Source: Paralimibaculum aggregatum
GTDB lineage: Bacteria > Pseudomonadota > Alphaproteobacteria > Rhodobacterales > Rhodobacteraceae
NCBI RefSeq assembly: GCF_030270585.1
Contig: NZ_BSYI01000036.1
Coordinates: 1 to 55,162, forward strand
Reading direction: 5' to 3'
Length of the DNA: 55,162 bases
Made by a program: the position numbers and the translations under genes
The notes under the pieces: generated by a model
The model's input: the letters and a program-made list of their open reading frames with translations, nothing else
Database searches by the model: none
What the model was told of the DNA's origin: nothing
Part shown: positions 3,836-50,051 of the stretch, piece after piece
How the letters are laid out: the number at the start of each line of letters is the position of its first letter
Position numbering within the stretch: position 1 is the first letter of the stretch

Positions 3836-3945
3836 CCCGGCGGCGGCGCACCGCGGCCCGAGGCCCCACCCGCCCGGAGAGGACGGCGCCGGCGGTACCG
3901 GCGGGGAAGCCCCCCAGCCTCGGGCCGCGGTGCGCCGCCGCCGGG
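3836..3945 (-). repeat. Hairpin element copy 1: 29-bp arms, 52-nt G-rich core
   Basis: Perfect 29-bp inverted arms (3836-3864 and 3917-3945) enclose exactly 52 nt. Read on the minus strand, the core begins TGGGGGGC and ends GGGCGGGTGGG directly before the arm. It aligns without gaps to copy 2, with roughly 80 percent identity by eye over all 52 positions, and the inner arm bases GCGGCCCGAGGC are shared as well. Strand given is the one carrying the G-runs. Confidence 0.85.
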
Positions 3946-4088
3946 TGGCCGGGTTATGCGGCTCCGGTAGGTGGGCGGGGGGACAACCGTCGGCAGCATC
4001 CGGCTGCGGGCGATCCGGGACCGGAGGGATGCCTGCGCAGGGCATTGCCCGCACAGGCATCGGGAGGCAGTCCGGCGGCCTTGCCTTG

Positions 4089-4123
4089 CCCTCCTTGCGT
4101 CCCGTTTCGGGACACAAGGAGGG
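4089..4123. terminator. Bidirectional hairpin between convergent genes
   Basis: CCCTCCTTG pairs with CAAGGAGGG (9 bp); after one mismatch, GTCCCG pairs with CGGGAC (6 bp) around a TTT loop. It sits 22 bp past the metY stop and could end transcription from either side. No strong T-run follows, so termination is inferred from position and stability. Confidence 0.6.
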
Positions 4124-4145
4124 GGGCGATACGGCGCCGGCGGTG

Positions 4146-5459
4146 TCAGGCTGCGGCAGTGCCGGCGGTGGCCTTGGCGAGCGCCTGGTCGAGATCGGCG
4201 ATCAGGTCCGCCGGGTCCTCGAGCCCGATCGAGAGGCGCACCACCTCCGGCCCGGCGCCGGCGGCCACGCGCTGCTCGTCGGTGAGCTGGCGATGGGTCG
4301 TCGAGGCCGAGTGGATGATCAGCGACCGGGCATCGCCGAGATTGGCGAGGTGGCTGAACAGCGTGACGCTGTCCACCATCCGGACGCAGGCGTCATAGCC
4401 GCCCTTGACGCCGAAGGTGAAGATCGAGGAGGCGCCTTTCGGGCAGTATTTCGCCTTGCGTGCCGCCCAGGGGCTGCTGGCGAGCCCGGCATAGGTGACA
4501 TACTCCACCGCCGGATGCGATTCGAGGAACTCTGCTACCTTCAGCGCGTTGGAGCAGTGCCGCTCCATCCGCAGCGACAGCGTCTCGATGCCGAGCAGGG
4601 TCTGGAAGGCGTTGACCGGCGCCTGGCACATGCCGAGATCGCGCAGCGTGATGGCGATGGAGTAGAAGGTGTAGGCCATCCCCCCCAGCGCCTCGTGGAA
4701 GTTCAGCCCGTGATAGCTCTCGCAGGGCGTGGTGAGCGCCGGGTAGTTGCCGCTGGCCGACCAGTCGAAGCGGCCGGAATCCACCACCATGCCGCCCATC
4801 GAGGTGGCGTTGCCGCAGAGATACTTGGTGGTCGAGTGGAGCACGATGTCGGCGCCGTGCTCGAAGGGCCGGCAGAGATAGGGGGTGGCGGTGGTGTTGT
4901 CGACGATCAGCGGCACGCCCGCGTCATGGGCGATCGCGGCCAGCGCCTCGATATCGGTGATGTAGCCGCCCGGATTGGCGATCGACTCGCAGAACACGGC
5001 GCGGGTGTTGCCGTCGATCGCGGCTTTCACCGCGGCCTCGTCCTCGGTGTCGACGAAGCGGACCTCCCAGCCGAAATGCTTGAAGGCATGGTTGAACTGG
5101 TTGACCGAGCCGCCATAGAGCCTGGTCGAGGCGACGAAGTTGTCCCCCGGTTTCATCAGCGGGAACAGCGCCATCACCTGCGCCGCGTGGCCCGAGGCGC
5201 AGGCCACCGCGCCGGCGCCGCCCTCGAGCGCGCAGACCCGGTCCTGCAGTACCTGCACGGTGGGGTTGCCGATGCGGGTGTAGATGTAGCCGAGCTCCTG
5301 CAGGTTGAAGAGCTTGGCGGCATGGTCGGCATCGCGGAAGACATAGGAGGTGGTCTGGTAGATCGGCGTCTGCCGGGCGCCGGTGGCCGGGTCGGGCTGG
5401 CTGCCGGCATGGATCTGCAGGGTGTCGAAGCCGTGCTTGGGCTCGCTGGTCTCGCTCAT
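4146..5459 (-). CDS. metY: O-acetylhomoserine sulfhydrylase (MetY-type, PLP)
   Basis: A 437-residue Cys/Met-metabolism PLP enzyme of fold type I. The PLP lysine is K212 in the stretch STTKYLCGNATS, and D187 (VDNTT) should bind the pyridine nitrogen; the N-terminal IYQTTSYVF and GYIYTRIGNPT motifs are typical. Family members make homocysteine from O-acetylhomoserine and sulfide, or use methanethiol. The length matches MetY better than cystathionine gamma-synthase (about 380-400). The start at 5459 has GAGGAA 6 nt upstream; an ATG 12 nt further out lacks a ribosome site. I looked for a SAM-II-like leader between 5460 and 5585 and did not recognise one. The gene is monocistronic. Confidence 0.88.
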   Translation of the reverse strand: MSETSEPKHGFDTLQIHAGSQPDPATGARQTPIYQTTSYVFRDADHAAKLFNLQELGYIYTRIGNPTVQVLQDRVCALEGGAGAVACASGHAAQVMALFPLMKPGDNFVASTRLYGGSVNQFNHAFKHFGWEVRFVDTEDEAAVKAAIDGNTRAVFCESIANPGGYITDIEALAAIAHDAGVPLIVDNTTATPYLCRPFEHGADIVLHSTTKYLCGNATSMGGMVVDSGRFDWSASGNYPALTTPCESYHGLNFHEALGGMAYTFYSIAITLRDLGMCQAPVNAFQTLLGIETLSLRMERHCSNALKVAEFLESHPAVEYVTYAGLASSPWAARKAKYCPKGASSIFTFGVKGGYDACVRMVDSVTLFSHLANLGDARSLIIHSASTTHRQLTDEQRVAAGAGPEVVRLSIGLEDPADLIADLDQALAKATAGTAAA

Positions 5460-5585
5460 GGCGTTCCTCATTCCTTGTCGGGGCCGCGTGTGGCGGCGGC
5501 TCTCGGGCGTGCGGCCGCCGGTGTCGCGGCTCGCGCCGAGACTATCGCGGTTTTCGGGAATTGACAGGGGGGATGCGCACCCGGA

Positions 5586-6695
5586 TCAGATCAACACGAA
5601 ATCCACGTAGTCCGTGCTGGTTTCGAAGAACAGCGCCAGTGCCGCCTCGGGGTCTGCCACGCGCCAGCCCTCGGCCGCCGTGCCGACCGGCTCGCCGGCG
5701 ACCGGGGTGCCGCTGTCCTGCAGCAGCTCCACCGCGGCCCAGACCGGGAGCTGGCCGCCGAGCTCCGCCTCCGCCGCCTCCTGCAGCCGGGCGATGGCGG
5801 CGGAGACATAGGGCGCCGAGAAGCTCGTGCCGGAGACATCCGCCACCAGCCCGTTGACGGTGTAGATCGGGATGTCGACGCCCGGGGCCGCGATGTCGGT
5901 GAGCGCCGGGTCGCGCTGCGAGAAATCCGCGAAAGCGCCGTCGTCATCGGTGGCCGAGACACCGATCACGTTGGGATCGGCAGCGATCACGCTCACGCCC
6001 TCCGGATAGCTGGCGCCATCATTGCCGGCGGCGGCGACCACCGAGACGCCCATCTCCGTGAGCGCCGCGATCTCGTCGGAGATCTGCGTCATCTCGATCA
6101 CGGTGGTGTTGCCGTAGCCGAGGCTGAGATTGACCGCGGCGACGGCGATCTCCGCCGCGAGGTCGATGGCGGCGGCGAGCGCCTGCTCGATATCGGAGAG
6201 ATAGGCCGAGCCGCCCTCGTCCGGGAAGACCTTGAAATGCACGATGTCAAGCTCCGGCGCGACGCGCAGCGCGGTCTGCGCCACCCAGGAGCCGTGGCTC
6301 TGCAATGTCTCCACCGAGGCATCCGGGTCGTCGGCAAAGCCGTAATAGTCGTATTCGTAGACGGTGGCGTCCTGGTCGAAGAAGGGCGAATAGCCGTCGT
6401 CGATCACGATCAGGGTCTGCCCGGCACCGAGATAGTCGTCCGGGTCGCCGGAGGGGGTGGTGGCCGGCTGCGGCTCCATCTGCGGCAGGCGGCCCGTGTC
6501 GCCGGGCAGGATCGCGGCGCCCTCCCCGGCACCGGCCTCGAGCCCCGCGACGAGATCGTCGAGCAGCAGGGCAGCGGCGGCGGAAAGGCTCTCGCCGGGG
6601 CCGATCTCGGCAGCCGCCTCGGCAGGGGCACCGGCCGCGGAACCGGCCGTGTAACCGGCGGTGCGCTCCAGAAGGGCGTCCAGCGCGTCTGTCAT
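5586..6695 (-). CDS. S8 subtilisin-like serine protease, no signal peptide
   Basis: A 369-residue acidic protein with the full subtilase triad: Asp99 in VIDDGY, His134 in SHGSWVA, Ser291 in SGTSFSAP, plus oxyanion Asn225 in AAAGNDG. There is no Sec signal; residues 1-90 form a low-complexity, Ala/Glu-rich pro-region. The protein ends in YVDFVLI, an acidic residue followed by hydrophobic residues, which resembles the extreme C-terminal signal of type I secreted proteases; no RTX repeats and no nearby type I transporter are seen, so export is inferred. The start at 6695 has GGGAG upstream, and the promoter at 6741-6769 is well placed for it. Confidence 0.88.
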   Translation of the reverse strand: MTDALDALLERTAGYTAGSAAGAPAEAAAEIGPGESLSAAAALLLDDLVAGLEAGAGEGAAILPGDTGRLPQMEPQPATTPSGDPDDYLGAGQTLIVIDDGYSPFFDQDATVYEYDYYGFADDPDASVETLQSHGSWVAQTALRVAPELDIVHFKVFPDEGGSAYLSDIEQALAAAIDLAAEIAVAAVNLSLGYGNTTVIEMTQISDEIAALTEMGVSVVAAAGNDGASYPEGVSVIAADPNVIGVSATDDDGAFADFSQRDPALTDIAAPGVDIPIYTVNGLVADVSGTSFSAPYVSAAIARLQEAAEAELGGQLPVWAAVELLQDSGTPVAGEPVGTAAEGWRVADPEAALALFFETSTDYVDFVLI

Positions 6696-6740
6696 GATCT
6701 GGTCTCCCGGCGAGGCTGCCGCGAAGCGTGCACCCTTCGG

Positions 6741-6769
6741 AGTATAGCCTGCTTCGCTCGGGGTTTCAT
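6741..6769 (-). promoter_or_regulatory. Promoter of the subtilase gene
   Basis: Minus strand: ATGAAA (-35, plus 6764-6769), a 17-nt spacer, then TATACT (-10, plus 6741-6746; 5 of 6 consensus bases). It lies about 45 nt upstream of the chosen start codon. Confidence 0.55.
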
Positions 6770-6858
6770 CCCTGCATGAACGAATGCACGCATCCCCGTG
6801 CGGCCCCTTGGTCGCGGGGCGCGCTGACATGGCAATGGCGGGGAGAGGTCAGAAAAAG

Positions 6859-6888
6859 GGCCGCCGGATCGGGGTGGATCCGGCGGCC
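6859..6888 (-). terminator. Rho-independent terminator, minus strand
   Basis: GGCCGCCGGATC pairs over 12 bp with GATCCGGCGGCC around a 6-nt loop. Read on the minus strand the hairpin is followed by C and five T residues. It terminates the transcript that carries the 42-aa membrane protein gene (7045-7173), leaving a 3' region of about 160 nt, and separates it from the subtilase promoter. Confidence 0.8.
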
Positions 6889-6898
6889 GAAGTGGCGC

Positions 6899-6967
6899 GC
6901 ATCGCGGGGCGTCGGCAGGGGGCAATCAGGGGTGACCCGCCCGGAGGGGGGAACCGCCCCGCAATGC
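6899..6967 (+). repeat. Possible degenerate hairpin element (copy 8)
   Basis: Arms GCATCGCGGGGCG (6899-6911) and CGCCCCGCAATGC (6955-6967) pair over 13 positions with one mismatch. The 43-nt interior contains GGGGGCAATC and GGGGTGACCC, resembling the GGGGGGCATC and GGGTGAC segments of copy 2. It is shorter than the 52-nt cores and lacks the GGG-N-GGG-N-GGGG end, so membership is tentative. Confidence 0.4.
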
Positions 6968-7044
6968 AGCGCTGGGCAACTGGGACAAGCTGTCGTCGGT
7001 GTGGCGGGCGCAGAGGTCCGGCGCGCGCCGAATGGGTCAGGGGC

Positions 7045-7173
7045 TCAGAGCAGGCCCGGCAGCAGGAAACCGGCGAAGATCAGCAGCGCCGCGGCGCCGA
7101 GGCCGAGGGTATCGAGCAGCGCCTCGCGGGGGGCGTGGCTCAGAAAGCTGCGGGCAGTGCGCAATGCGGCCAT
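7045..7173 (-). CDS. 42-aa single-pass membrane protein
   Basis: A very short gene supported by GAGGAG placed 7 nt before the ATG at 7173, an operator-like region upstream and a strong terminator downstream. The peptide begins MAALRTARSFLSHAPREALL, a basic amphipathic segment. A hydrophobic stretch from about residue 22 to the C-terminus (LGLGAAALLIFAGFLLPGLL) should form one membrane helix. I do not recognise the family. Small inner-membrane proteins induced by the SOS response and blocking division (such as Caulobacter SidA) have this general form, and the upstream GAAC repeats invite the comparison, but no sequence similarity to SidA is claimed. Confidence 0.65.
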   Translation of the reverse strand: MAALRTARSFLSHAPREALLDTLGLGAAALLIFAGFLLPGLL

Positions 7174-7307
7174 TGGTGTCTCCTCTGCGGCGGGTCTGAT
7201 CCGGGTTTGTTCTCTTCTGGGTCTGCGTCTTCCGGTCGTCGTCTGGATCTGCGTTGACGGAAGGGGCGATCTCCGTTCCGGCCCTCCCGATGCCTCATGT
7301 ACACCAT

Positions 7308-7353
7308 ATGTTCTCATAAAAATCAAGAACATTTTGAGGACAAATGAGAACAT
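7308..7353 (-). promoter_or_regulatory. AT-rich operator with GAAC/GTTC repeats, LexA-like
   Basis: This is the most AT-rich spot in the region, inside the long leader of the 42-aa gene. ATGTTCTCAT (7308-7317) and ATGAGAACAT (7344-7353) form a perfect 10-bp inverted repeat. Between them lies GAAC-N7-GGAC (7327-7341), one base from the GAAC-N7-GAAC (GTTC-N7-GTTC) LexA box of alphaproteobacteria. A further GAAC follows at 7348-7351, but with spacing N6. On the minus strand a weak -35/-10 pair (TTGTCC, TTTATG) overlaps these sites, so the region looks like a repressor-controlled promoter. Confidence 0.45.
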
Positions 7354-7405
7354 TCAGCGCGCAGGTCGGGAACGAAGTGGTGACAGACCCGCGGCGAAAG
7401 CCGCC

Positions 7406-9487
7406 TCAGCCGCTCTTCAGCAGCCGCACCGACTGGTCGCGCCCCATGAGATAGAGCAGGATCTTCAAGGCCTTGCCGCGCTCGCCGGCAAGCTCCGGAT
7501 CGGTGTGGAGCGCCAGCCGCGCCTCGTCGCGCGCCCGCGCCATCAACCCGGCATCGGCCTCGAGATCGGCCACCCGGAACTTCGGCAGGCCGGACTGGGC
7601 CAGACCGAGAACATCCCCCGCACCGCGCAGCCGCAGGTCCTCCTCGGCGATTCGGAAGCCGTCCTCGGTCTCGCGCATCACCTGGAGCCGCGCCGTCGCG
7701 GTCTCGCCGATACCCGGTGCATAGAGCAGCAGGCAGGAGGATTTCGCCGCGCCGCGCCCGACCCGCCCGCGCAGCTGGTGGAGCTGGGCAAGGCCGAACT
7801 GGTCCGCCTGCTCGACCACCATGATGCTCGCCGCCGGCACGTCGACGCCGACCTCGATCACCGTCGTCGCCACCAGCACGCGGGCACGGCCCTCCTGGAA
7901 GGCGGCCATGGCGGCGTCCTTTTCTTCCGGGGCCATCTGCCCGTGCACCAGCGCGACGCGCTCGGCCCCGAGCTCGCGGGCCAGCGCCTCGTGCCGGGCC
8001 TCGGCGGAGATCAGCGGCACCTCGTCGGAGTCCTCCACCGCCGGGCAGACCCAGAAGGCCTGGGCGCCGCGCTCCAGCGCCGCCGCGAGCCGCGCCACCA
8101 CCTCGCCATAGCGCTCCTGGGAGACCAGCCGCGTCTCCACCGGCTGGCGCCCCGGGGGCTTCTCGTCGAGCAGCGAGATGTCGAGATCGCCATAGCCGGC
8201 GAGCGCCAGGGTGCGCGGGATCGGGGTGGCCGACATGAAGAGCACGTCGCAGCCCGCCGGCGCCTTGTCGGTGAGCTCCATGCGCTGGCGCACGCCGAAA
8301 CGGTGCTGCTCGTCGATCACCACGAGGCGCAGATCGGCGAAGGCGACATCCGGCTGCAGCAGCGCATGGGTGCCGACGACGATCTGCGCCCGGCCCTGCG
8401 CCACCGCCTCGCGCACCTCGCGCCGCTCCGCCGCACGGTCGCGCCCGGTCATCAGGCTGAGATGCACGCCCGCCGCCTCGGCAAGCGGCGCCAGGCCATG
8501 GGCATGCTGGCGGGCAAGGATCTCGGTCGGCGCCATCAGCGCGCCCTGCCCGCCGGCCTCCACCGCGCGCAGCAGCGCCATCGCCGCCACCCAGGTCTTG
8601 CCGGAGCCGACATCGCCCTGCAGCAGCCGCAGCATGCGCTCGGGCGCGGCCATGTCGGCCAGGATCTCGTCGCGCGCCCGGGCCTGCGCCCCGGTGGGCG
8701 GATGGCCGAAGGCGGCCGCGGCACGGGCCAGCAGATGCCCCTCCCCGGTGCTCGCCCGGCCCCGGCCCCGGCGCATGCTGGCGCGGGCAAGCTGCAGCGC
8801 GAGCTGGTGCGAGAGCAGCTCGTCATAGGCGAGCCGGGCGCGCGGCGCCTCCGCCGCGCGGGGGCCGCCGGGGGCATGGATGCCGGCCAGCGCGGCGGCG
8901 AAATCGGGCCAGCCGCGCTCGGCCAGGAAGGCGGGGTCGAGCCATTCCGGCAGCGCCGGCAGGGCGGCGCGCGCGCCCTCCACCGCCTTCGCCACCATGC
9001 GCTGGGTCAGCCCCTGGGTGAGCGGATAGACCGGTTCGAAGGGCGGCAGCCCGGCCGCCTCCTCGGGGCTCAGCACATGCTCGGGATGCGGCATCTGCCA
9101 GCGCCCGTCGAAGAGCTCGACCCGGCCGGAGAGCACGAGCTCGGCGCCCTCCGGATAGAGCCGGCGCATCCATTCCGAATTGGTCTTGAAATGGACGATC
9201 TCGAGGCCGCCGCCGGGGCACGCCGCCACCACGCGGTAGGGCCGGTTGCGGGCGCGCGCCGGGCGGTGCTCGCCGATCGTCACGGCAATGGTCACCACCT
9301 CCTTCGGCTCGGCATCGGCGAGGCTCTCGCGCAGCCGCCGGTCTGTATAGCGCTCCGGCGCCAGCAGCAGCAGGTCGCGCAGCTGGGCCACGCCGATCTT
9401 CTCGAGGAGGCGCGCGGTCTTCGGCCCGACGCCGGACAGCGTCTCGACCGAGGCGAACAGCGGGAAGAGGATCTCGGGCCGGCTCAT
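7406..9487 (-). CDS. recG: ATP-dependent DNA helicase RecG
   Basis: 693 residues, the usual RecG length. The enzyme remodels stalled replication forks and branch-migrates Holliday junctions. The N-terminal wedge/OB region begins with a helix-hairpin-like GVGPKTARLLEKIG, and an OB-type stretch follows at about 50-150. Helicase motif I (GDVGSGKTW) lies near residue 290 and motif II is the RecG-typical DEQH near 389 (VVIDEQHRFGVRQ). The C-terminal helicase domain contains the QLRGRVGRG motif VI. The start at 9487 has AGGGGGC upstream. Two hairpin elements separate it from the upstream GNAT gene, so it may have its own promoter. Confidence 0.97.
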   Translation of the reverse strand: MSRPEILFPLFASVETLSGVGPKTARLLEKIGVAQLRDLLLLAPERYTDRRLRESLADAEPKEVVTIAVTIGEHRPARARNRPYRVVAACPGGGLEIVHFKTNSEWMRRLYPEGAELVLSGRVELFDGRWQMPHPEHVLSPEEAAGLPPFEPVYPLTQGLTQRMVAKAVEGARAALPALPEWLDPAFLAERGWPDFAAALAGIHAPGGPRAAEAPRARLAYDELLSHQLALQLARASMRRGRGRASTGEGHLLARAAAAFGHPPTGAQARARDEILADMAAPERMLRLLQGDVGSGKTWVAAMALLRAVEAGGQGALMAPTEILARQHAHGLAPLAEAAGVHLSLMTGRDRAAERREVREAVAQGRAQIVVGTHALLQPDVAFADLRLVVIDEQHRFGVRQRMELTDKAPAGCDVLFMSATPIPRTLALAGYGDLDISLLDEKPPGRQPVETRLVSQERYGEVVARLAAALERGAQAFWVCPAVEDSDEVPLISAEARHEALARELGAERVALVHGQMAPEEKDAAMAAFQEGRARVLVATTVIEVGVDVPAASIMVVEQADQFGLAQLHQLRGRVGRGAAKSSCLLLYAPGIGETATARLQVMRETEDGFRIAEEDLRLRGAGDVLGLAQSGLPKFRVADLEADAGLMARARDEARLALHTDPELAGERGKALKILLYLMGRDQSVRLLKSG

Positions 9488-9551
9488 GCCCCCTGATGGC
9501 GGCGCGGCGCGGTGCGGTCAACACCGCGCGGCGGCGCAAGGGGGCGAGGAT

Positions 9552-9639
9552 GGCGGCGCGGCCCGAGGCCCCACCCACCCGGCGAGGACGGCACCGGTGT
9601 CACCCGAGCGGATGCCCCCCAGCCTCGGGCCGCGCCGCC
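9552..9639 (-). repeat. Hairpin element copy 2: 18-bp arms, 52-nt core
   Basis: Perfect 18-bp arms (9552-9569, 9622-9639) around exactly 52 nt. On the minus strand the core starts TGGGGGGCATCC, has GGGTGACACC in the middle and ends GGGTGGGTGGG beside the arm. It is the closest relative of copy 1. It lies in the recG leader, with the G-rich strand in the same sense as recG. Confidence 0.85.
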
Positions 9640-9666
9640 GGCCCCGATGGCGCGCCGGTGGCCCTG

Positions 9667-9758
9667 GCGGGGCGCGGCCCGGCGCCGGTGGGGGAGCGTG
9701 ACCGACCGGCCAGACACTGCGGTTGCCGGGGTGGGTGGGGCGCCGGGCCGCGCCCCGC
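9667..9758 (+). repeat. Hairpin element copy 3: 20-bp arms, 52-nt core
   Basis: Perfect 20-bp arms (9667-9686, 9739-9758) with arm sequence unrelated to copy 2, again enclosing exactly 52 nt. The plus-strand core begins GGTGGGGGAGCGTGACC and ends CCGGGGTGGGTGG. It lies 28 bp from copy 2 in the opposite orientation and ends 1 bp before the GNAT stop codon, where it could also serve as that gene's terminator. Confidence 0.85.
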
Positions 9759-9759
9759 G

Positions 9760-13045
<3,286 letters not shown>

Positions 13046-18004: not shown

Positions 18005-18061
18005 GCGCAGGGCCCGGGGAGCGCCGGGTGGGCGGGCGGGGGCGCTCCCCGGGCCCTGCGC
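18005..18061 (+). repeat. Hairpin element copy 4: 21-bp arms, 15-nt G-quadruplex loop
   Basis: Perfect 21-bp arms (18005-18025, 18041-18061) around only 15 nt: GGGTGGGCGGGCGGG on the plus strand. The loop keeps the G-rich end of the 52-nt cores and has four G3 tracts with single-base loops, the arrangement known to give very stable parallel quadruplexes. It lies 32 bp beyond the amidase stop codon and could act as its terminator. Confidence 0.75.
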
Positions 18062-18093: not shown

Positions 18094-19311
18094 TCAGCCG
18101 CGCGGCACCAGAAAGCCCGGCGAGGCGACATCGACCCAGTCCGCGATGCCCTCGGCGATGCCCTCGGCGAGCTGCGCCCGCCAGGCCGGATCGACCAGCC
18201 GCGCCCGGTCCACCGGGCTCGAGAGGAAGCCGAGCTCGACCAGCACCGAGGGCAGGTCCGGCGCCTTCAGCACGAAGAAGTTGCCGCGCCGGTGCGGCCG
18301 CGTCGGCAGCAGCGCCACCCTGCCCGAGAGCGCGCCGACGATGCTCTCGGCGAGCTTGATCGCCTCGGATTTCGACCCGCGCCGGGCGAGCTCGATCAGC
18401 AGCCGGGTGACGTCGTCCTCGCTGCCGGCGAGATTGACCCCGGCGAGCACGTCGGAGCGGTTCTCGCGTTCGGCGAAGGCCGCGGCCGCGCTGTCGGTGC
18501 CCTGCGCCGAGAGCGTGTAGATGCTGACCCCGTCGGCCTCGCCCGCCGCGAGGCTGTCGGCATGCAGCGAGACGAAGACATGCGCGCCGGCCTGCCGCGC
18601 CAGCTTCACCCGCTGGCGCAGCGGGATGTAGCGGTCGTCGACCCGGGTGAGGAAGGCGCTGAGCCCCGGCCGCCGCGCCACCGCCTGCGCCAGGCTCCGG
18701 CCGAAGGCCAGCGCCAGGTCCTTCTCCACCAGATCGCCGTGGGCGGTGCCGGGGTCGATCCCGCCATGGCCCGGATCGATCGCCACCAGCACCTCGCCGC
18801 TGCCCTCGATCGGCGTCGGCGCGCCGGCCTGCCAGCGCGCGTTCTCCGGCCATCCGGCGCTCGCCGCGAAGGCCTGCCGCGAGACCGGCGCGAGACCGAG
18901 CCGCAGCGCGAAGCCGCCGCGCACCGGCACGAGGCCGGCGCGCCGCACCGCCAGCGGCCGGTCGAGCTCGATCACCACGCGCCCGCTGTCATGCCGGAAC
19001 AGACCGTGCCGGATCGCCACGATGCCGGGCATAGCGCCGGGCGCCACCGGCGCCGCACGCCAGGCGAAGGGCGGCAGGTCGATCACCACCCGGTAGGGCT
19101 CGGTCAGGGTGAAGAGGCTGAACACCGCATCCCCCGAGAGCCCGAGCGTCAGCTCGGTGACGCCGCCGGCGCTTGTCTGCGAAACCGCTGTCACGGCCAG
19201 CGCCGGCTCCGCGGTTTCCGCCGCCGCGGCGCTGCCGCCGGCCGCGCCGAGCCACGGCGCCATGCCGAGGAATGCGCCCAGAAATGCTGCCGGAATTGCC
19301 CTTGCCCGCAT
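18094..19311 (-). CDS. Periplasmic N-acetylmuramoyl-L-alanine amidase (AmiC-like)
   Basis: 405 residues with a signal peptide (1 to about 30). An AMIN domain (about 38-140), which targets the septal wall, is followed by a linker and a zinc-dependent Amidase_3 domain from about 185. Zinc and catalytic residues are visible in IDPGHGGIDPG (His), DLVEKDLALAF (Glu), SLHADS (His) and VELGFLSS (catalytic Glu). Such enzymes cut the amide between MurNAc and L-Ala to separate daughter cells, usually needing an EnvC/NlpD-type LytM activator; none is adjacent, though an M23 protein lies at 42.9 kb. It is divergent from rne. Confidence 0.93.
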   Translation of the reverse strand: MRARAIPAAFLGAFLGMAPWLGAAGGSAAAAETAEPALAVTAVSQTSAGGVTELTLGLSGDAVFSLFTLTEPYRVVIDLPPFAWRAAPVAPGAMPGIVAIRHGLFRHDSGRVVIELDRPLAVRRAGLVPVRGGFALRLGLAPVSRQAFAASAGWPENARWQAGAPTPIEGSGEVLVAIDPGHGGIDPGTAHGDLVEKDLALAFGRSLAQAVARRPGLSAFLTRVDDRYIPLRQRVKLARQAGAHVFVSLHADSLAAGEADGVSIYTLSAQGTDSAAAAFAERENRSDVLAGVNLAGSEDDVTRLLIELARRGSKSEAIKLAESIVGALSGRVALLPTRPHRRGNFFVLKAPDLPSVLVELGFLSSPVDRARLVDPAWRAQLAEGIAEGIADWVDVASPGFLVPRG

Positions 19312-42716: not shown

Positions 42717-42884
42717 CCGCGCCAGCCGGGCGCGACGGCCCGCCGCCGCCGGACCATCTCCGGAGAAAATCATTGCCAACCTCGGCAGCCATGTCCTACA
42801 ACGTTGCGCGAAACACGCACGCCATAAAAAACTAAACTGTTGCGTGGGCGTCACTGTACGAGGGGCTGCTGGGGGTTTTCCGGG

Positions 42885-44240
42885 ATGTCGACTGCGATAG
42901 CGCGTGCGCTGAACGCTGCGATCGGACGGGTCCTGCCCGAACGTCAGATCTTTATCCGGACCGAGGCGAACTCGCGGTATCTGCTGCTGACGCCGATGGC
43001 GCAGGCCAGCTCGATCCTCGCGATTGCCGTCGGTCTGGCCTGGGGCGGGTTCGCCACCGTCAAGACCTTCGAGACCACCATGGAGGCGGAGCGCACAGCG
43101 CTCACCCGCGCCGCGGTGGAGCGGGCATGGGCCGCCCGGCTCGACGCCATCGACGCCGAGCGCGCCGGTCTCGAGCGTGAGATCGCCGCCCTGCGCGCGG
43201 ACCGCCAGGCCGCCGCCCGGGCGCTCGGCGAGGCCCAGGGCCGGCTCGTCGAGGCAACCGCGGCGCTGCGCGCCGCCGATGTCGAGCGCCGCGCGCTGAA
43301 ACGCGCCGTCGAGCGCATCCAGCTCGAGCGCAGCGATGCCGCCGAGCGCGTCGCCCAGCTCGAGGCCACGCTGCGCGAGACCCGGCTCTCGATGCTGAAG
43401 CAGGCCACCGATCCGCAGCCCGAGGCCGTGCCGGAGGACCTGCTCTCCGGCAGCATGATCACCAGCGCCATGGGCACCGTGATCGCCGAGCGCGACGAGG
43501 CGCTGGCCGAGATCGCCTCGCTGGACACCCAGATCGCCGATCTCACCGGCCAGATCGAGCACTGGCGCGACCACCAGGACAGCGTGCTCACCAAGCTCGA
43601 GACCGCCGCCCGCACCAGCCTCGAGGGGCTGACCACGGTGCTCGAGCGCGCCGATCTCGACATCGAGCGCATCCTCGCCACCACCCGCAGCGAGTACAGC
43701 GGCTCGGGCGGGCCGTTCGAGCCGCTCACCGAGGACGAGGCCGCCCGCCTCGACGGCGGCGAGGAGGACACCCGCATCGCCGCCCTGATGGGCGATCTGG
43801 AGCGCGCCAACCTGCTGCGCATCGCGGTCGACCGGCTGCCCTTCGGCCTGCCGGTGCACGGCGCGCGCTTCACCAGCGGCTTCGGCAAGCGGCGCGACCC
43901 GTTCCGGCGGCGCTGGTCGATGCACAAGGGGGTCGACTATGCCGCACCGGTCGGCACCCCGATCAACACCACCGCGGCGGGTCTGGTAAGCTTTGCGGGC
44001 CGCATGCGCGGCTATGGCAATATCGTGATCATTAAGCATGCCTTCGGCTATGAAACCCGGTATGCTCACCTGAAGCGCGCGCTGGTGAAAGCCGGCGACC
44101 GTGTGACACGTGGCGACCGGATCGCGCTCATGGGGAGCACGGGCCGCTCGAGCGGCAGTCATCTCCACTACGAGATCCGGATCGACGAGGATCCGATCAA
44201 CCCGAAGAAATTTATCGAGGCAACGCGAGATGTTCTCTAA
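42885..44240 (+). CDS. Membrane-anchored M23 peptidase with coiled coil
   Basis: 451 residues. A short cytoplasmic N-terminus (about 1-40, with a conserved-looking ERQIFIRTEANSRYLLLTP segment) precedes one transmembrane helix (about 46-66). A long coiled coil (about 70-200), a linker, and a LytM/M23 domain follow, with ligands H347 and D351 (MHKGVDYAAP) and the HLHYE motif (H426, H428). All catalytic residues are kept, so it should be an active endopeptidase. The gene overlaps the bactofilin gene by 11 bp. Coupled M23/bactofilin pairs (LmdC-BacA) are known in alphaproteobacteria, where the cytoplasmic tail binds the bactofilin polymer. Confidence 0.9.
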   Translation: MSTAIARALNAAIGRVLPERQIFIRTEANSRYLLLTPMAQASSILAIAVGLAWGGFATVKTFETTMEAERTALTRAAVERAWAARLDAIDAERAGLEREIAALRADRQAAARALGEAQGRLVEATAALRAADVERRALKRAVERIQLERSDAAERVAQLEATLRETRLSMLKQATDPQPEAVPEDLLSGSMITSAMGTVIAERDEALAEIASLDTQIADLTGQIEHWRDHQDSVLTKLETAARTSLEGLTTVLERADLDIERILATTRSEYSGSGGPFEPLTEDEAARLDGGEEDTRIAALMGDLERANLLRIAVDRLPFGLPVHGARFTSGFGKRRDPFRRRWSMHKGVDYAAPVGTPINTTAAGLVSFAGRMRGYGNIVIIKHAFGYETRYAHLKRALVKAGDRVTRGDRIALMGSTGRSSGSHLHYEIRIDEDPINPKKFIEATRDVL

Positions 44241-44838
44241 GAACAAGATCAGCGACACCGACACGCCATCCTCCACCACCAAGAGCGCAGCCTCCGGCCC
44301 GAAACCGTCCGGCGGGCCGGGCGCCACCGGCTCCATGGTGCCGGGCAGCACGCCGCCGCCGGCCACCACCGGCAGCCCGAGCAGCGCCCCGGCCCCCTCG
44401 CTGCCGGCGAAATCGAAGCCCTCGCCCTCGCTGCTGTCGAGCGACCTCACCGTGAAGGGCAATGTCAGCACCTCTGGCGACATCCAGATCGAGGGGACCA
44501 TCGAGGGCGATGTCCGCGCGCATCTGCTCACCGTCGGGGAGAGCGCGACGATTCGCGGCGAGGTGGTGGCCGACGACGTGGTGGTGAACGGCCGCGTCGT
44601 GGGGCGCCTGCGCGGGCTGAAGGTGCGGCTGACCTCGACCTCCAAGGTCGAGGGCGACATCGTGCACAAGTCGATCGCGATCGAGTCCGGCGCGCATTTC
44701 GAGGGCTCGGTGCAGCGTTCGGAGGACCCGCTCGGCGACGGCGCCGCGGGCGGCCGTCCGGTGCCGACCACTGCGGCGGAGAGCATCTCGGCCGTGGCCG
44801 CCGCCGGCGCCGGCCCGCTGGCCAAGACCGACAACTGA
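44230..44838 (+). CDS. Bactofilin
   Basis: 202 residues. The polymerising bactofilin (DUF583) beta-helix core runs from about residue 75 to 165 (LTVKGNVSTSGDIQIEGTIEGDV...ATIRGEVVADDVVVNGRVVGRLRG). It is flanked by a Ser/Pro/Gly-rich N-terminal tail and a short disordered C-tail. Bactofilins form nucleotide-free filaments on the inner membrane that localise wall enzymes. Start ATG 44230 lies inside the end of the M23 gene with GCGAG upstream, so translation is coupled. A stable hairpin follows. Confidence 0.93.
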   Translation: MFSKNKISDTDTPSSTTKSAASGPKPSGGPGATGSMVPGSTPPPATTGSPSSAPAPSLPAKSKPSPSLLSSDLTVKGNVSTSGDIQIEGTIEGDVRAHLLTVGESATIRGEVVADDVVVNGRVVGRLRGLKVRLTSTSKVEGDIVHKSIAIESGAHFEGSVQRSEDPLGDGAAGGRPVPTTAAESISAVAAAGAGPLAKTDN

Positions 44839-45207
44839 ACCGCCATGCCACCGCCGATCCTCGTCGCGCCGGGAGCCTCGCCTCCCGGCGCGCTGCGTTC
44901 GGGGGCGGCGCCTCTCCGGGGCAGCCGGGCGCCAGGGGCGCGGCCGGGTTGGCTGTCGTCGCGGTGTTCCTCGGGAGAGCGGGTCCGGATCGCTCGGGGA
45001 GCAACCGTGATCCGCGGCTCGGCATCGGCCGGCACGTTTTCAGGAGAGCGGCTTCACCAGCGATGAGCGGGATGACGGGCGGCCCAGGGCGCCGGGAGGC
45101 ATCTGCGCTGCGTGATGTGCCGCCGGGATGCGCGGACAGGCGCAATGCGGGTCAGGGACGTTCTGTCCTCCGAACGGCGATGTCGGACCTGGCGGCTCGC
45201 TGCCGGC
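44839..45207. other. Convergent intergenic region between bactofilin and ctrA
   Basis: 369 bp with no convincing gene. It starts with the hairpin at 44865-44892 and is otherwise GC-rich with no element core of the hairpin family. I looked for a small gene on each strand and found none with a ribosome site. Confidence 0.6.
44865..44892 (+). terminator. Hairpin after bactofilin
   Basis: CGCGCCGGGAG pairs perfectly with CTCCCGGCGCG (11 bp) around CCTCGC, 26 nt after the bactofilin stop. No T-run follows. Confidence 0.55.
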
Positions 45208-45921
45208 TCAGCCGGCCCGGCCGGTCTCCGCCGCCATCGGTGCGGCCACCGGATCGCGCAGCACGTAGCCGCGGCCCCAGACGGTCTCGATGTAGTTCTG
45301 CCCGCCGGTGGCGGAGGTGAGCTTCTTGCGCAGCTTGCAGATGAAGACGTCGATGATCTTCACCTCCGGCTCGTCCATGCCGCCATAGAGGTGGTTGAGG
45401 AACATCTCCTTGGTCAGCGTCGAGCCCTTGCGCAGCGAGAGCAGCTCGAGCATCTGGTATTCCTTGCCGGTCAGATGCACCGGATGGCCGTCCACCTCCA
45501 CGGTCTTGGCATCGAGGTTCACCGCCAGCTTGCCGGTATGGATGACCGACTGCGCATGGCCCTTGGAGCGGCGGACGATGGCATGGATCCGCGCGATCAG
45601 CTCGTCGCGGTCGAACGGCTTGGTGAGGTAGTCGTCGGCGCCGCAGCCGAATCCCTTGATCTTGTCCTCCGCCGCGTCGTGGCCGGAGAGAATCAGCGTC
45701 GGCGTCTCGACCTTGCCCATGCGCAGCCGGCGCAGCACGTCGTATCCGTCGATGTCGGGGAGGCTTAGATCGAGGATGATCAGGTCGTAGTCGTACAGCT
45801 TGGCCAGCTCCACCCCCTCCTCGCCGCTATCGGTGACGTAAGGGTTCAGCTCAGCCTTGCGCAGCATCAGCTCGATGCTGTCCGCCATAGACTGATCATC
45901 CTCGATCAGCAAAATTCGCAT
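45208..45921 (-). CDS. ctrA: Cell-cycle response regulator CtrA
   Basis: 237 residues. The receiver domain has the phosphoacceptor D51 ([10 protein letters not shown]), acidic pocket E7-D8-D9 and K102-region ([10 protein letters not shown]). An OmpR-type winged helix follows ([27 protein letters not shown]...[15 protein letters not shown]). In Rhodobacterales CtrA is not essential and drives motility, gene transfer agents and recombination genes. A TTAACC half-site upstream suggests autoregulation. The start has CGGAG upstream. The sciP gene lies immediately upstream on the same strand. Confidence 0.97.
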
Positions 45922-45964
45922 TGTTCGCTCCGCAGCCCCATGAACTCTAACAGACGCACTGAAA

Positions 45965-45986
45965 GGTTAACACCGAGAAAGTAAAC
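45965..45986 (-). promoter_or_regulatory. TTAA-type CtrA half-site(s) in the ctrA promoter
   Basis: On the minus strand TTAACC (plus 45965-45970) stands 17 nt before TAGAGT, a plausible -10, so the TTAA overlaps the -35 position as in CtrA-dependent promoters. A second related GTTTAC lies at 45981-45986. The full TTAA-N7-TTAA consensus is not met. Confidence 0.45.
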
Positions 45987-46015
45987 GGGGGGTTACCGCG
46001 GGCGGGCAATCGGGG

Positions 46016-46294
46016 TCATTCTGATCTGGTGCGGCTCCGTCGGAGCTGGGTCACCCGCAGCCCGCGCATCCCGTAGGACGACAGCGCGGACCGCCAGCAG
46101 TCGAATTCTTCGTCGCTGATGGAATAGAGCCGGGCAGCTTCTTCCTGCGTGATCAGTCCGCCTTCTACGGCTGCCACCACCTTCGCCTTCCGGCGGGGGA
46201 CCCATCTTCGGGTCGTCGTTGGCGGCAGATCGGCCCTGGTCATCCGCTCCCCGTCGGGGCCGATGACGAATTGGACATCACACCTGTCTTCCAT
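46016..46294 (-). CDS. sciP: CtrA inhibitor SciP (DUF1153)
   Basis: 92 residues. DUF1153 is seen across VIGPDGERMTRADLPP, TTRRWVPRRKAKVVAAVEGGLITQEEAARLYSISDEEFDCW. In Caulobacter SciP is a helix-turn-helix protein that binds CtrA and blocks activation of its targets. The start ATG 46294 has AGGAG 4 nt upstream; the GTG one codon earlier is too close to the ribosome site. Same strand as ctrA with a 94-bp gap, and divergent from mnmA. Confidence 0.92.
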   Translation of the reverse strand: MEDRCDVQFVIGPDGERMTRADLPPTTTRRWVPRRKAKVVAAVEGGLITQEEAARLYSISDEEFDCWRSALSSYGMRGLRVTQLRRSRTRSE

Positions 46295-46389
46295 CACGCT
46301 CCTTCTCTGACTATGTCGTGGGCCTGAAGCTAGGCGCGCGACCTTAAGAGCCGATGAAAGCCGCCGCCCGATCGTGGAAAAACAGGACC

Positions 46390-47541
46390 ATGACGCAGAC
46401 GGAAACCATCGCGAGACCGCAGGCGGCGAACAGCCTCGGCCTGCCGAAACCGCCCGCGCAGACCCGCGTGGTGGTCGCGATGTCCGGCGGCGTGGACAGC
46501 TCGGTGGTGGCCGCCGAGCTCGCGGCCGAGGGCTATGACGTCGTCGGCATCACCCTGCAGCTCTACGACCACGGCGCCGCGCTCGCGAAGAAGGGCGCCT
46601 GCTGCGCCGGCCGCGACATCCACGATGCGCGCCGGGTCGCCGAGACCATGGGCTTCCCGCACTACGTGCTGGACTATGAAAGCCGGTTCCGCGAATCGGT
46701 GATCGAGGATTTCGCCGAGAGCTATCTCGCCGGCGCCACCCCGATCCCCTGCGTGCGCTGCAACCAGCGGGTCAAGTTCCGCGACCTTCTGGAGACCGCG
46801 CGCGAGCTCGAGGCGGACTGCCTCGCCACCGGCCATTACGTGCGCCGGCAGGACGGCCCGCAGGGGCCGGAGCTGCACCGGGCCGCCGATCCGGCGCGCG
46901 ACCAGAGCTATTTCCTCTTCGCCACCACGCCGGAGCAGCTCGGCTATCTGCGCTTCCCGCTCGGCGGGCTGGCCTCCAAGGCCGAGACCCGCGCGCTGGC
47001 GCAGAAGCACGGGCTGCCGGTGGCCGACAAGCCGGACAGCCAGGACATCTGCTTCGTGCCCGAGGGCGGCTATGCGGCGGTGATCGAGAAGCTGCGCCCG
47101 GGCGCCGCCGAGCCCGGCGAGATCGTCGATCGCGAGGGCCGCGCGCTCGGCCGCCACGAGGGCGTGATCCACTATACCATCGGCCAGCGCCGCGGGCTCG
47201 GGCTTGGCGGCGGCGAGCCGCTCTACGTGCTCAGGCTCGACCCGGAGCGGCGCCATGTGGTGGTCGGCCCGCGGTCGGCGCTGGCCACCCGCCGGGTGCC
47301 GGTGGCCGAGGTCAACTGGCTCGGCGACGGCGCCTTCGACGATGCCCCGGCGGGCGGCCACGAGGCGCTGGTCAGGATCCGCTCCACCCGGCCGCCGGCG
47401 CCGGCACGGATCCATCCCGCCGGGGACCGCGCCGAGGTCGAGCTGCTATCGCCGGAGGAAGGCGTCGCGCCCGGCCAGGCCTGCGTGTTCTACGCGCCGG
47501 AGGGCACCCGCGTGCTCGGCGGCGGCTGGATCACGCGGTGA
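46390..47541 (+). CDS. mnmA: tRNA 2-thiouridylase MnmA
   Basis: 383 residues. It thiolates U34 of tRNA Lys, Glu and Gln. The PP-loop SGGVDSS is at 32-38, the catalytic Cys121 in PIPCVRCN and the second active cysteine at about 221 in [11 protein letters not shown] 25-residue N-terminal extension precedes the PP-loop domain. The start at 46390 follows AGGACC. It overlaps exoD by four bases. Confidence 0.96.
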
Positions 47542-48146
47542 CCGGCGATCAGGGCCACGACGAGCCGCTGGAGCAGGCGATCGACGACATCGACGAGGCG
47601 GTCGGCGAGGACAGGCTGCGCGTCGGCACCCTGCTCGACGCCTTCGAGGACCGCTCGCTCGGCTTCATCCTCACGGTCTTCGGCCTCGTGGTCTCGCTGC
47701 CGGTGATCGGCGCGCTGCCGGGGCTGCCGAACGTGGCGGCCATCGTGATCCTGCTCACCGTGTTCAACACCTTCATCGGCGGGCAGAACCGGCTCTGGGC
47801 GCCGGAGATCCTGCGCCGGCAGGAGGTCTCGGCCGGCCCGGTGCACAGGGTGCTCGGCTGGGTGCGGCCGATCGGCGCGCGGGTCGACGCGCTGCTCGGC
47901 GAGCGCATGGCGGTGCTGGTGGCCGGCCGGCCGGCGCGGATCGCCATCGCGGCGGTCGCGGCGCTGCTGGCGATGGCGATGGTGGTGCTCTCGATCGTGC
48001 CCTTCCTCGCCCTGCCCGCCTCGCTCGGGATCATGGCCTTCGGGCTGGCGCTGATGGGCCGCGACGGGCTGGTGGCGCTGCTCGGCTATCTCTTCACCGG
48101 GGGCACGCTGGTGGCACTCGGCTACGCGCTCGACACCGCCTTCTGA
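47538..48146 (+). CDS. ExoD-family inner membrane protein
   Basis: 202 residues. The N-terminal 40 residues are acidic and cytoplasmic; four to five hydrophobic segments follow (about 43-57, 64-82, 133-155, 158-175, 180-198). The ExoD family signature is seen in [19 protein letters not shown] and [13 protein letters not shown]. ExoD was linked to exopolysaccharide production and alkali tolerance in rhizobia; its activity is unknown. GTG start overlaps the mnmA stop, so the two are translationally coupled. Confidence 0.88.
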
Positions 48147-48209
48147 GCCGCCGGCTTGCCAAGCCCCGCGCCGCGGGACTAGCCTCCGCGCAAACCGCGA
48201 GGAGGCCCC

Positions 48210-49610
48210 ATGCCCGACACACCCCTGCCCGATATCGCCGCCGTTCTCGACCGTCTCGACGCCGACCGCGAGGGCGCGCTCGAGCGGCTCTTCGCGCTGC
48301 TGCGCCTGAAATCGGTCTCCACCGATCCGGCCTATGCCGAGGAGTGCCGCCGCGCCGCCGACTGGCTGCTCGACGATCTCCGCGCCATCGGCTTCGACGC
48401 CCGGCTGGTGGAGACCGAGGGCCACCCGCTGGTGATCGGCCATGGCGGCCCCGAGGGCGGCCCGCATGTGCTGTTCTACGGCCATTACGACGTGCAGCCG
48501 GTGGACCCGCTCGAGCTCTGGGAGACCGATCCCTTCGAGCCCCGCATCGCCGGGCTGCCGGACGGGCGCCAGGCGATCACCGCCCGCGGCGCCTCCGACG
48601 ACAAGGGCCAGGTGATGACCTTCCTCGAGGCCTGCCGCGCCTGGAAGGCCGCCACCGGCAGCCTGCCCTGCCGCGTCACCGTGCTGCTCGAGGGCGAGGA
48701 GGAAAGCGGCGGCGAGTCGCTCACCGCCTATCTCGCCGGCCAGCCCGAGGAGCTGAAGGCCGCCGATGTCGCGCTGGTCTGCGACACCGGCATGTGGGAC
48801 CCCGAGACCCCGGCGATCACCACCCAGCTCCGCGGCAACGTCACCCAGCAGGTCACCGTCACCGGCCCGTCGCGGGACCTGCATTCCGGGCTCTACGGGG
48901 GCGCCGCGGCGAACCCGATCCACGAGCTGACCAGGGCGCTGGCGGCGCTGCGCGACGCCGCGGGGCGGATCACCCTGCCCGGCTTCTACGACGGCGTGCC
49001 GGAGCTGCCGGAGGAGCTGCGCGCGCAATGGGAGGGGCTCGGCTTCGAGCCCGGCGATTTCCTCGGGGCGGTGGGCCTCTCCAGCCCCGCCGGCGAACAG
49101 GGCCGCAGCGCGCTCGAGCAGCTCTGGTCGCGCCCGACGGCGGAGATCAACGGCATCTGGGGCGGCTATACCGGCGCCGGTTTCAAGACCGTGATCCCGG
49201 CCGAGGCCCATGCCAAGGTCAGCTTCCGCCTCGTCGGCGAGCAGGACCCGCAGGCCGTCCGCGCCGCCTTCCAGGCCCATATGCGCGCCGCGATCGACCC
49301 GCAATGCGGCGTCGCCTTCACCGATTTCGGGGCCGGCAAGCCGATCTCCATGCCGATCGAGGCGCCGGAATTCGCCAAGGCCCGCCAGGCGCTGACCGAT
49401 GAATGGGGCCGCGAGGCGGCCTTCATCGGCTCCGGCGGCTCGATCCCGGTGGTCGGCCAGTTCAAGCGCCAGCTCGGGCTCGACAGCCTGCTGATCGGCT
49501 TCGGCCAGGATGACGACCGCATCCACTCGCCCAACGAGAAATACGACCTCACCAGCTTCCACGGCGGCGCGCGCTCCTGGGCGCGGGTGCTCGCGGCGCT
49601 CGCGGGGTGA
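48210..49610 (+). CDS. M20-family metallopeptidase (dipeptidase)
   Basis: 466 residues. Two-zinc catalytic domain with ligands in FYGHYDVQP (His), GASDDKGQ (bridging Asp), EGEEESGG (catalytic Glu and ligand), CDTGMW (Asp) and HSPNEKYD (His). A dimerisation lid domain occupies about 210-380. It matches the group annotated as dipeptidases or cytosolic nonspecific peptidases; substrate not known. The start has GAGGAGGCC upstream. No signal peptide. Confidence 0.92.
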   Translation: MPDTPLPDIAAVLDRLDADREGALERLFALLRLKSVSTDPAYAEECRRAADWLLDDLRAIGFDARLVETEGHPLVIGHGGPEGGPHVLFYGHYDVQPVDPLELWETDPFEPRIAGLPDGRQAITARGASDDKGQVMTFLEACRAWKAATGSLPCRVTVLLEGEEESGGESLTAYLAGQPEELKAADVALVCDTGMWDPETPAITTQLRGNVTQQVTVTGPSRDLHSGLYGGAAANPIHELTRALAALRDAAGRITLPGFYDGVPELPEELRAQWEGLGFEPGDFLGAVGLSSPAGEQGRSALEQLWSRPTAEINGIWGGYTGAGFKTVIPAEAHAKVSFRLVGEQDPQAVRAAFQAHMRAAIDPQCGVAFTDFGAGKPISMPIEAPEFAKARQALTDEWGREAAFIGSGGSIPVVGQFKRQLGLDSLLIGFGQDDDRIHSPNEKYDLTSFHGGARSWARVLAALAG

Positions 49611-49681
49611 GACGCGATGGGCCCGGTGGCACCGCCGCCGGGTCGGTCATCGCTGACATGCCGGGCGGTCGGCCGGGCGGC

Positions 49682-49813
49682 TCAGGTCGCCGGATCGACC
49701 GCCTCCTCCTTCGGCTTCTCGGTCGTCTCCTGCGACGACCAGGGACAGGCCGCGGCCGGCATGGCGAAAGCGGCGAGGGCCAGCACGAGCACCGGCAGGG
49801 CGAGCGTCTTCAT
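49682..49813 (-). CDS. 43-aa exported peptide, possible lipoprotein
   Basis: A small gene with GGAG 8 nt before the ATG at 49813. MKTLALPVLVLALAAFAMPAAAC is a clear export signal. The lone Cys23 follows AAA, which is close to a lipobox but lacks the usual Leu at -3, so it may be either a lipoprotein or a SPase I product. The mature part is a 20-residue acidic tail (PWSSQETTEKPKEEAVDPAT). No function is recognised. It lies downstream of hairpin copy 5 and convergent with the M20 gene. Confidence 0.65.
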   Translation of the reverse strand: MKTLALPVLVLALAAFAMPAAACPWSSQETTEKPKEEAVDPAT

Positions 49814-49929
49814 GATGCTGTCTCCGTCCAGGGATGTTCCGGACCTCGAGATTAGGGCAGAGCCGCCCCGCCGCACAGGATTTTTGCACCCGACTGCCCC
49901 GGACGTCCGGGCCCGGCACCGCCCGATGG

Positions 49930-50051
49930 GCGCCCGGCGCGGGCCGGCGCGGCCTCCCGCAGGCGAAGGGGGGCGTGACACCCGCCGCCGGGTGCAGCAC
50001 CGGCAGGGTGGGCGGGGCCTGCGGGAGGCCGCGCCGGCCCGCGCCGGGCGC
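49930..50051 (+). repeat. Hairpin element copy 5: 35-bp arms, 52-nt core
   Basis: Perfect 35-bp arms (49930-49964, 50017-50051), the longest here, around exactly 52 nt. The plus-strand core begins GAAGGGGGGCGTGACACC and ends AGGGTGGGCGGG directly before the arm. The arm sequence is unrelated to the other copies. It lies 6 bp past the stop of the 91-aa gene (-). Confidence 0.88.

Follow-up and report, generated by a model that had tools for sequence, protein, structure and literature searches.

Hairpins with four G-tracts in the loop, dispersed past gene ends in Paralimibaculum aggregatum

Repetitive extragenic palindromic (REP) elements, as described in an excerpt of PMC3733652, are palindromic, dispersed, mostly located past genes and unevenly distributed among species. 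Their stems measure mostly 6-9 bp and are family-specific, the loops are mostly short and a GTAG or CGTC tag is present; CGTC REPs have been reported without a dedicated transposase (PMC3733652). The words quadruplex and Rhodobacter are absent from the main text of that paper. A stretch of 55,162 nucleotides from Paralimibaculum aggregatum (contig NZ_BSYI01000036.1; hereafter the window, meaning the whole stretch analysed) contains hairpins for which the REP-like palindromic repeat is the nearest kind. They are like REP elements in being dispersed palindromes past genes and unlike them in tag, stem and transposase. Here, the stems measure mostly 13-35 bp and are copy-specific, the loop is conserved and no tag is enriched.

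Structural work on quadruplex-duplex hybrids has dealt with short sequences that combine G-tracts with a hairpin. The same combination reportedly occurs in a 'G-quadruplex-Hairpin-Duplex switch' of E. coli, said to have been described by Kaplan in 2016. In the present hairpins, in contrast, the motif is the hairpin loop itself, dozens of copies exist, the stems covary and a place past genes is preferred. Integron attC sites have conserved ends and a variable middle. The present hairpins do not fit this layout; here, the loop and inner stem are conserved and the outer ends are variable.

BoxC repeats, as presented in an excerpt of PMC4666352, are likewise intergenic and capable of non-B structure. 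Their non-B form is a triplex with a third strand and does not involve loop G-tracts; GGGTGGG and CCCACCC are absent from the text of that paper. The quadruplex-forming repeats of Xanthomonas and Nostoc are also enriched in particular bacteria. These are simple sequence repeats, and the first part of the abstract mentions no hairpin (PMC4692102). Quadruplex mapping in Rhodobacter showed no enrichment at any region, according to an excerpt of PMC6486626. Inverted repeats past stop codons are found across bacteria, with hotspot spacers of primarily 4-5 bp (excerpt of PMC13155455). PMC12563890 does not contain the terms hairpin, inverted repeat or Rhodobacter. Among the top-ranked titles and abstract starts of the open-licence literature, none concerned quadruplex hairpin loops past genes in Rhodobacterales.

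A genome-wide hairpin family with two forms

The hairpins are real, far beyond chance and part of a genome-wide family. The constant part is the set of four G-tracts in the loop and not a length of 52 nt. A sequence-only reading of the window had listed four intergenic hairpins with arms of 18-35 bp and 52 enclosed nucleotides. All four were recovered by a direct check of the window: the arms pair perfectly over 29, 18, 20 and 35 bp, and each pair of arms encloses exactly 52 nt. The list had overlooked a fifth member at 18005-18061. A scan of the window for perfect arms of at least 13 bp and loops of 3-199 nt yielded 11 perfect hairpins, and these five have the longest arms. The strand given below is the G-rich strand.

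3836..3945, minus strand: long-loop copy 1, perfect arms of 29 bp (3836-3864 and 3917-3945), loop of 52 nt
9552..9639, minus strand: long-loop copy 2, perfect arms of 18 bp, loop of 52 nt; left half of a close minus/plus pair
9667..9758, plus strand: long-loop copy 3, perfect arms of 20 bp, loop of 52 nt
18005..18061, plus strand: short-loop copy of 57 nt, perfect arms of 21 bp, 15-nt loop GGGTGGGCGGGCGGG
49930..50051, plus strand: long-loop copy 4, perfect arms of 35 bp, loop of 52 nt
49968..50017, plus strand: G-tracts of copy 4, GGGGGG (49968-49973), a 32-nt stretch, then GGGTGGGCGGGG (50006-50017)

After orientation of the copies (1 and 2 on the minus strand), the shared core proposed by that reading was evident: G5-6, followed by a variable stretch that contains a CCGGGYGC-like part, and GGG-N-GGG-N-GGGG. 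A tight pattern run on the window gave 0 matches. The hairpins had no match in Rfam 15 at the gathering threshold over the whole window, nor had the region 9500-9800 at E<=5. Blastn of copies 2 and 3 against plasmids and phages had no match. DNA folding of 18005-18061, with quadruplexes not modelled, leaves the 15-nt loop open.

The genome comprises 5.5 Mb on 201 contigs. The G+C content is very high (72%). Copies were searched by blastn, a motif search and the covariance model R1, built from 15 copies, which found 46 places at E<=1. The hairpin set was derived from 40 genome stretches; a script searched them for loops of about 44-65 nt and kept hairpins that carry GGGNGGGNGGG where the loop meets the 3' arm. 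It contains at least 39 long hairpins, overlapping or weaker neighbours having been dropped by the script. Model matches outside the 39 include C55:5225, C58:13717, C41:16337, C7:164014, both C11 copies and C6:121935. The loop measures 52 nt in 18 copies, 51 nt in 6, 53 nt in 4, 54 nt in 1, 57-59 nt in 7 and 62-64 nt in 3. The invariant 52-nt core of the sequence-only reading was therefore abandoned: 52 nt is only the mode within a range of 51-64 nt, and the short form has 15 nt. That reading had also held that coincidental terminators would show neither an enrichment of 52-nt loops nor a common core across the genome. In this genome, 29/39 loops of the set selected for GGGNGGGNGGG measure 51-54 nt and the remaining 10/39 measure 57-64 nt.

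The long copies share one layout, with G4-6 and GGGNGGGNGGG at the 5' and 3' bases of the loop, respectively. The first bases differ between core classes, and 38/39 copies have at least four G by the 5' arm together with GGGNGGGNGGG by the 3' arm. The long loop thus has four G-tracts as in the short form, with about 30 nt separating tract 1 from tract 2. Two variants, L117 (C41:16337) and L119 (C7:164014), have GCAGGCGGGTGGG on the 5' side and CAGGGGTGGGGCCTGC on the 3' side, that is two tracts per loop side and not one plus three. Some copies form close minus/plus pairs (9552-9758, C2:52262/52410, C21:30330/30425, C40:34118/34231, C55:5128/5225 and C11:23426/23558), some of them between convergent genes.

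Some motif matches lie outside the long-loop hairpins, in hairpins with a 15-nt loop that consists of four G-tracts and one-base linkers. The genome has 53 GGGNGGGNGGGNGGG motifs, the four congeners have 4, 10 (8 of them one poly-G run), 1 and 1. Nearly all are in a hairpin loop: 51/53 at an arm score of at least 8 and 41/53 at a score of at least 15. The controls reached 39/4000 random positions and 40/3000 all-GC 15-mers at the lower score, and 4/4000 and 0/3000 at the higher. The loop is exactly 15 nt long in 42 of the 51 short copies. Stems range from 8 to 35 bp across both forms and have at least 13 bp in 39/39 long and 47/51 short copies. ViennaRNA with the quadruplex option predicts a best structure with a quadruplex for all 51 short G-strand RNAs. 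The short form is best seen as the basic form and the long form as the same cap with tract 1 set about 30 nt apart.

Distribution of the two forms

Among the family genomes searched, the long form is found only in this genome. Its pattern has 42 matches here (control 2) and never more than one in any of the 393 other family genomes. The ten single matches elsewhere are armless and score 5 at best, whereas four copies from this genome reach 17-26. A covariance model search of 60 relatives found nothing; its first pass was coarse, so the pattern search of 394 genomes served as check. A search for empty sites in four congeners located the flanking genes, but on different contigs or at large distances; the longer matches show 70-78% identity, too low for an alignment of the gaps.

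The short form is common to many genera of the family, within Rhodobacterales. The motif GGGTGGGYGGGYGGG occurs in 75/295 family genomes, this genome counted. Arms were present at 30 of 31 motif sites read in G022 (36 matches in all), at 28 of 30 read in G065 (122 matches) and at 8/9 in G008. The matches of G065 are mostly GGGTGGGTGGGTGGG or of T-C-T linker order, so that the control with the reversed pattern comes close (54 and 54). With one locus per genus, arms were found at 21/30 motif sites; random positions in the same loci gave 54/3000. The congener G004 has one copy with perfect arms of 32 bp. A class-wide search covered 385 genomes, 380 of them outside the family. The motif was detected in 8 of the 380, once or twice each, and 0/10 of these loci (one cut by a contig end) had arms of score 8 or more. 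The scan of a contig collection, this genome not among the matches, gave 8 matches with arms of only 4-6 bp. By eye, in many copies of G065 (L337-L356 and others), a second hairpin immediately adjoins the quadruplex hairpin on its 5' side. The second hairpin has copy-specific arms and a short apex, for example CGCYYGCG, and the arms of the adjoining quadruplex hairpin are near-constant.

Several single copies sit past betB, a gene name backed by the annotation of similar plasmid genes. Examined were 94 betB sites, 90 of 103 found plus four reached through the motif, with 92 usable gene ends. A four-tract hairpin is present at 9/92 ends, always in the same orientation (9/9), and at 5/88 without the four motif-chosen sites. 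Two further ends have degenerate loops. The stems are mostly unrelated and alike in one clade (G221, G103 and G228). G103 and G221 have an identical loop and differ in a stem pair (T-A versus C-G). On the betB tree, 11 labelled rows, including the four chosen for the motif, need 9 changes, compared to a shuffled mean of 10.5 with 36/500 as low. The presence of the hairpin is therefore scattered, either through several gains or through extensive loss. That the betB copies were inherited vertically was considered and is unsupported beyond one clade of three. The nine genomes with a betB copy have 0-2 typed-motif matches each. The betB-gap hairpin was noticed in several scattered genera with few motifs per genome (L401, L412 and L252). 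It precedes an open reading frame (ORF) on the same strand that resembles GMC oxidoreductases (betA by eye; one locus seen in full).

Stems, strand and place relative to genes

Stems evolve under a pairing constraint. For 40 long copies aligned to the covariance model, an alignment fitted to the structure, 98.9% of the cells are paired and both-sided changes occur at 11/12 pairs. Both-sided cells number 131; shuffles give 38.7 (0/500 reached 131), and slid controls yield no more than 23. RNAalifold on a MAFFT alignment of 33 copies gave 6 pairs and no compensatory change. We attribute this poor yield to MAFFT, which moves the arms by one column; the model with given arm structure mends it. The long stems of 13-35 bp are free of mismatches to the arm end in 34/39 copies, and the short stems are perfect to the end in 19/51. 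The sequence-only reading had considered a constant loop with compensatory arm change. The both-sided cells and the betB stem pair with its unchanged loop support this idea.

About 4-6 bp away from the loop, a recurrent mismatch is seen in the G022 and G065 loci and in the short-loop hairpins of this genome; in most cases it is G.G or G.T. It was counted 15 times at position 6 in G065, 4, 8 and 6 times at positions 4, 5 and 6 in G022 and 10 times at position 6 in this genome. Such a near-loop mismatch might act as a recognition bulge.

The stem mismatches are biased by strand. They were counted with equal penalty, one short copy with a stem of less than 10 bp being left out. On the G-rich strand, G.T/T.G (31), G.G (19) and G.A (8) are opposed to A.C (2), C.C (3) and C.T/T.C (2). 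Counted by element, 22 have G.T and 2 have A.C. The ratio of G.T to A.C is 11:0 in convergent gaps, 10:1 where the G strand is antisense between tandem genes and 8:1 where it is sense. Other genomes were analysed with short-loop hairpins of score 9 or more (28/30 motifs in G065, 21/31 in G022, 5/9 in G008 and 17/30 one-per-genus motifs), and the direction agrees with this genome. The counts of G.G, G.T and A.C are 17, 7 and 0 in G065, 12, 4 and 2 in G022, 1, 1 and 0 in G008, and 4, 5 and 1 in the one-per-genus set. Foldability of the G strand is kept whatever the direction of transcription, which points to a constraint on the G-rich DNA strand. The tandem-antisense class lacks a reversed bias; hence, the mRNA of the adjoining gene does not appear to be the selected molecule.

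The hairpins are dispersed extragenic palindromes concentrated past gene ends, with the G strand mostly the template of the ending gene. The 90 hairpins of this genome (39 long and 51 short) were placed relative to genes of a home-made codon-usage caller, not an annotation, whose stops are more reliable than its starts. A stop codon is located within 60 nt of an arm in 66/90 hairpins. Relative to the G strand, a stop lies on the 3' side in 57/90, in 46 of these within 30 nt. In tandem gaps, the G strand is antisense in 38 and sense in 17 cases. Divergent gaps hold 4/90 hairpins, compared to 54/222 gaps of the same stretches; this background includes the hairpin gaps, and a few stretches are present twice. 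Like intrinsic (rho-independent) terminators, the elements are GC-rich hairpins close past a stop codon. In contrast to them, the loop has 15 or about 52 nt and not a few, and a T-rich tract is missing: four or more T in the first 10 nt past the hairpin were found in 0/57 cases with the stop on the 3' side and 0/18 with the stop on the 5' side.

The window illustrates this placement. The distance to the stop codon is 7 nt for copy 1 (past the plus-strand gene 1795-3828), 1 nt for copy 3 (minus-strand gene 9760-10254), 6 nt for copy 4 (minus-strand ORF 50058-50333) and 32 nt for the short-loop copy (minus-strand gene 18094-19263). Copy 2 has no adjoining stop codon; the RecG-like gene 7406-9487 has its called start 64 nt away. 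The neighbouring genes and the sole Rfam match of the window are as follows.

427-514, minus strand: tRNA gene (Rfam RF00005, 59.2 bits)
1795..3828, plus strand: gene of a RACo-type ASKHA-domain protein, ends at copy 1 (Pfam RACo_C_ter, Raco_middle, RACo_linker)
9760..10254, minus strand: GNAT acetyltransferase gene, ends at copy 3 (Pfam Acetyltransf_1)
18094..19263, minus strand: N-acetylmuramoyl-L-alanine amidase gene, ends at the short-loop copy (Pfam Amidase_3)
50058..50333, minus strand: ORF ending at copy 4, without Pfam match and of uncertain coding (low gene-caller score)

Proposed function and competing explanations

We see an even chance that these elements are REP-like, transposase-less, quadruplex-capped gene-end hairpins with stems under pairing constraint. 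The G-rich strand would extrude as a hairpin, from a cruciform or a single strand, and the loop would fold into a three-tetrad quadruplex on the stem. In vivo, the loop may adopt this fold. Located mostly on the strand that serves the ending gene as template, the quadruplex cap would form a boundary at which RNA polymerase is stalled or released and adjacent genes are kept apart, a putative transcription roadblock or insulator. The stem would change by compensatory steps because pairing alone matters, and the loop would stay fixed because the quadruplex matters. The long copies have clearly also multiplied within this genome. An extension of this proposal to the whole family is tentative: Rhodobacterales may use quadruplex hairpins, mostly in the template strand, as DNA gene-end signals that replace U-tract terminators, with a recognised quadruplex, a free stem and spread without REP-associated tyrosine transposases (RAYTs).

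Several observations weigh against the proposal. The stop is on the 5' side of the G strand in 18/90 hairpins, and 24/90 have no called stop within 60 nt. Mismatches are present in 32/51 short copies. ViennaRNA places a quadruplex in just 13/39 long copies, the first linker being beyond the limit of the program, and the quadruplex prediction uses RNA parameters alone. Common ancestry of elements reduces the mismatch bias to fewer than 22 independent events. Another possibility is that C-to-T/G changes are tolerated since they leave the G-tracts unharmed; changes toward G or T in the 3' arm may serve the tracts and not pairing. Among the one-per-genus motif sites, 9/30 are without a hairpin, and most betB ends lack it. 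The hairpin between betB and the following ORF would allow no complete stop there, if both belong to one operon.

A somewhat unlikely alternative is a REP-like mobile repeat, perhaps single-stranded, that copies into gene-end palindromes and has arms derived from the target or remade. Median pairwise identity of the long-copy cores is 70%. In nine core pairs, the cores are 88-92% alike; compared with no shift allowed, 6/9 have at most 4 contiguous inner arm bases in common and 3/9 have 6-16. The closest pair (98%, C20/C21) lies past different genes. Its inner arms agree over 20 bases on either side, and 8 further bp are paired in the C21 copy alone. The restriction of the long form to this genome, the near-constant arms and G.G mismatch near the loop in many of the 30 copies read in G065, and the scattered betB occurrence, subject to its four motif-chosen rows, fit mobility as well. 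A small mobile core that enters terminator loops had been one of the two ideas of the sequence-only reading. The similar cores at different places (88-98%) agree with it, as do the 6/9 pairs with few common inner bases. The arms do not: 34/39 long copies have no leftover loop or mismatch, and no fixed ends of the element were apparent.

The search for a transposase does not favour mobility of this kind either. A look for a RAYT-type or IS200/IS605-type TnpA had been advised by the sequence-only reading. The Y1 transposase family PF01797 had 0 matches in this genome and in the motif-rich genomes G022, G065, G008, G267, G098, G281 and G124, so the RAYT route is unsupported. The same search was positive in 5/14 control genomes and 5/32 queried, including the motif-bearing G269 and G004. 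At the palindrome foot, taken at both ends from 8 nt outside to 4 nt inside, the GTAG tag was found in 0/90 hairpins (background 3.8%) and CGTC in 10/90, not enriched over a background of 18.4%. No target duplication was noticed in the printed flanks. The betB site recurs far beyond random insertion in genomes with so few motif matches, and the compensatory stem change occurred at this one orthologous site.

It is rather unlikely that the element acts as RNA, with the mRNA of the ending gene forming a stem whose C-rich loop protects the 3' end or recruits a binder such as Rho. The 57:18 polarity past stops means that the mRNA mostly holds the C-rich loop, and the position in the gene gap past betB would suit this function. 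Wobble pairs in the mRNA, however, would read as A.C on the G strand, whereas the tandem-antisense class has 10 G.T and 1 A.C. The stop-proximal hairpins also lack a U-tract.

Less probable still, the arms are a by-product of DNA synthesis: a stall at the quadruplex leads to a template switch, the flank is copied inverted (quasi-palindrome correction) and the stem is unselected. Pairing to the arm end in 34/39 long copies despite a median core identity of 70% would be explained in this way, as would the longer stem of the C21 copy. Correction should remove G.T and A.C equally, which leaves the 31:2 bias unexplained, and mismatches are kept in more than half of the short copies. Coincidental GC-rich terminator hairpins, an explanation in keeping with the G+C content and the gene-end position, are refuted by the random and all-GC controls, loop-length clustering, covariation and absent U-tracts and have practically no probability left.

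The quadruplex-capped gene-end hairpin remains our proposal. The repeat family turns the usual arrangement of REP elements around, with a fixed loop and a free stem, in a genome without a match to the REP-spreading transposase. Whether bacterial DNA uses G-quadruplexes for a specific task has been hard to settle, chiefly since the motifs are scattered and confounded with GC content. The 90 copies in one genome come with built-in controls: the motif is almost absent outside hairpin loops, the long stems covary, and place and polarity by stop codons are preferred. They make this question directly testable by changes of stem and loop.

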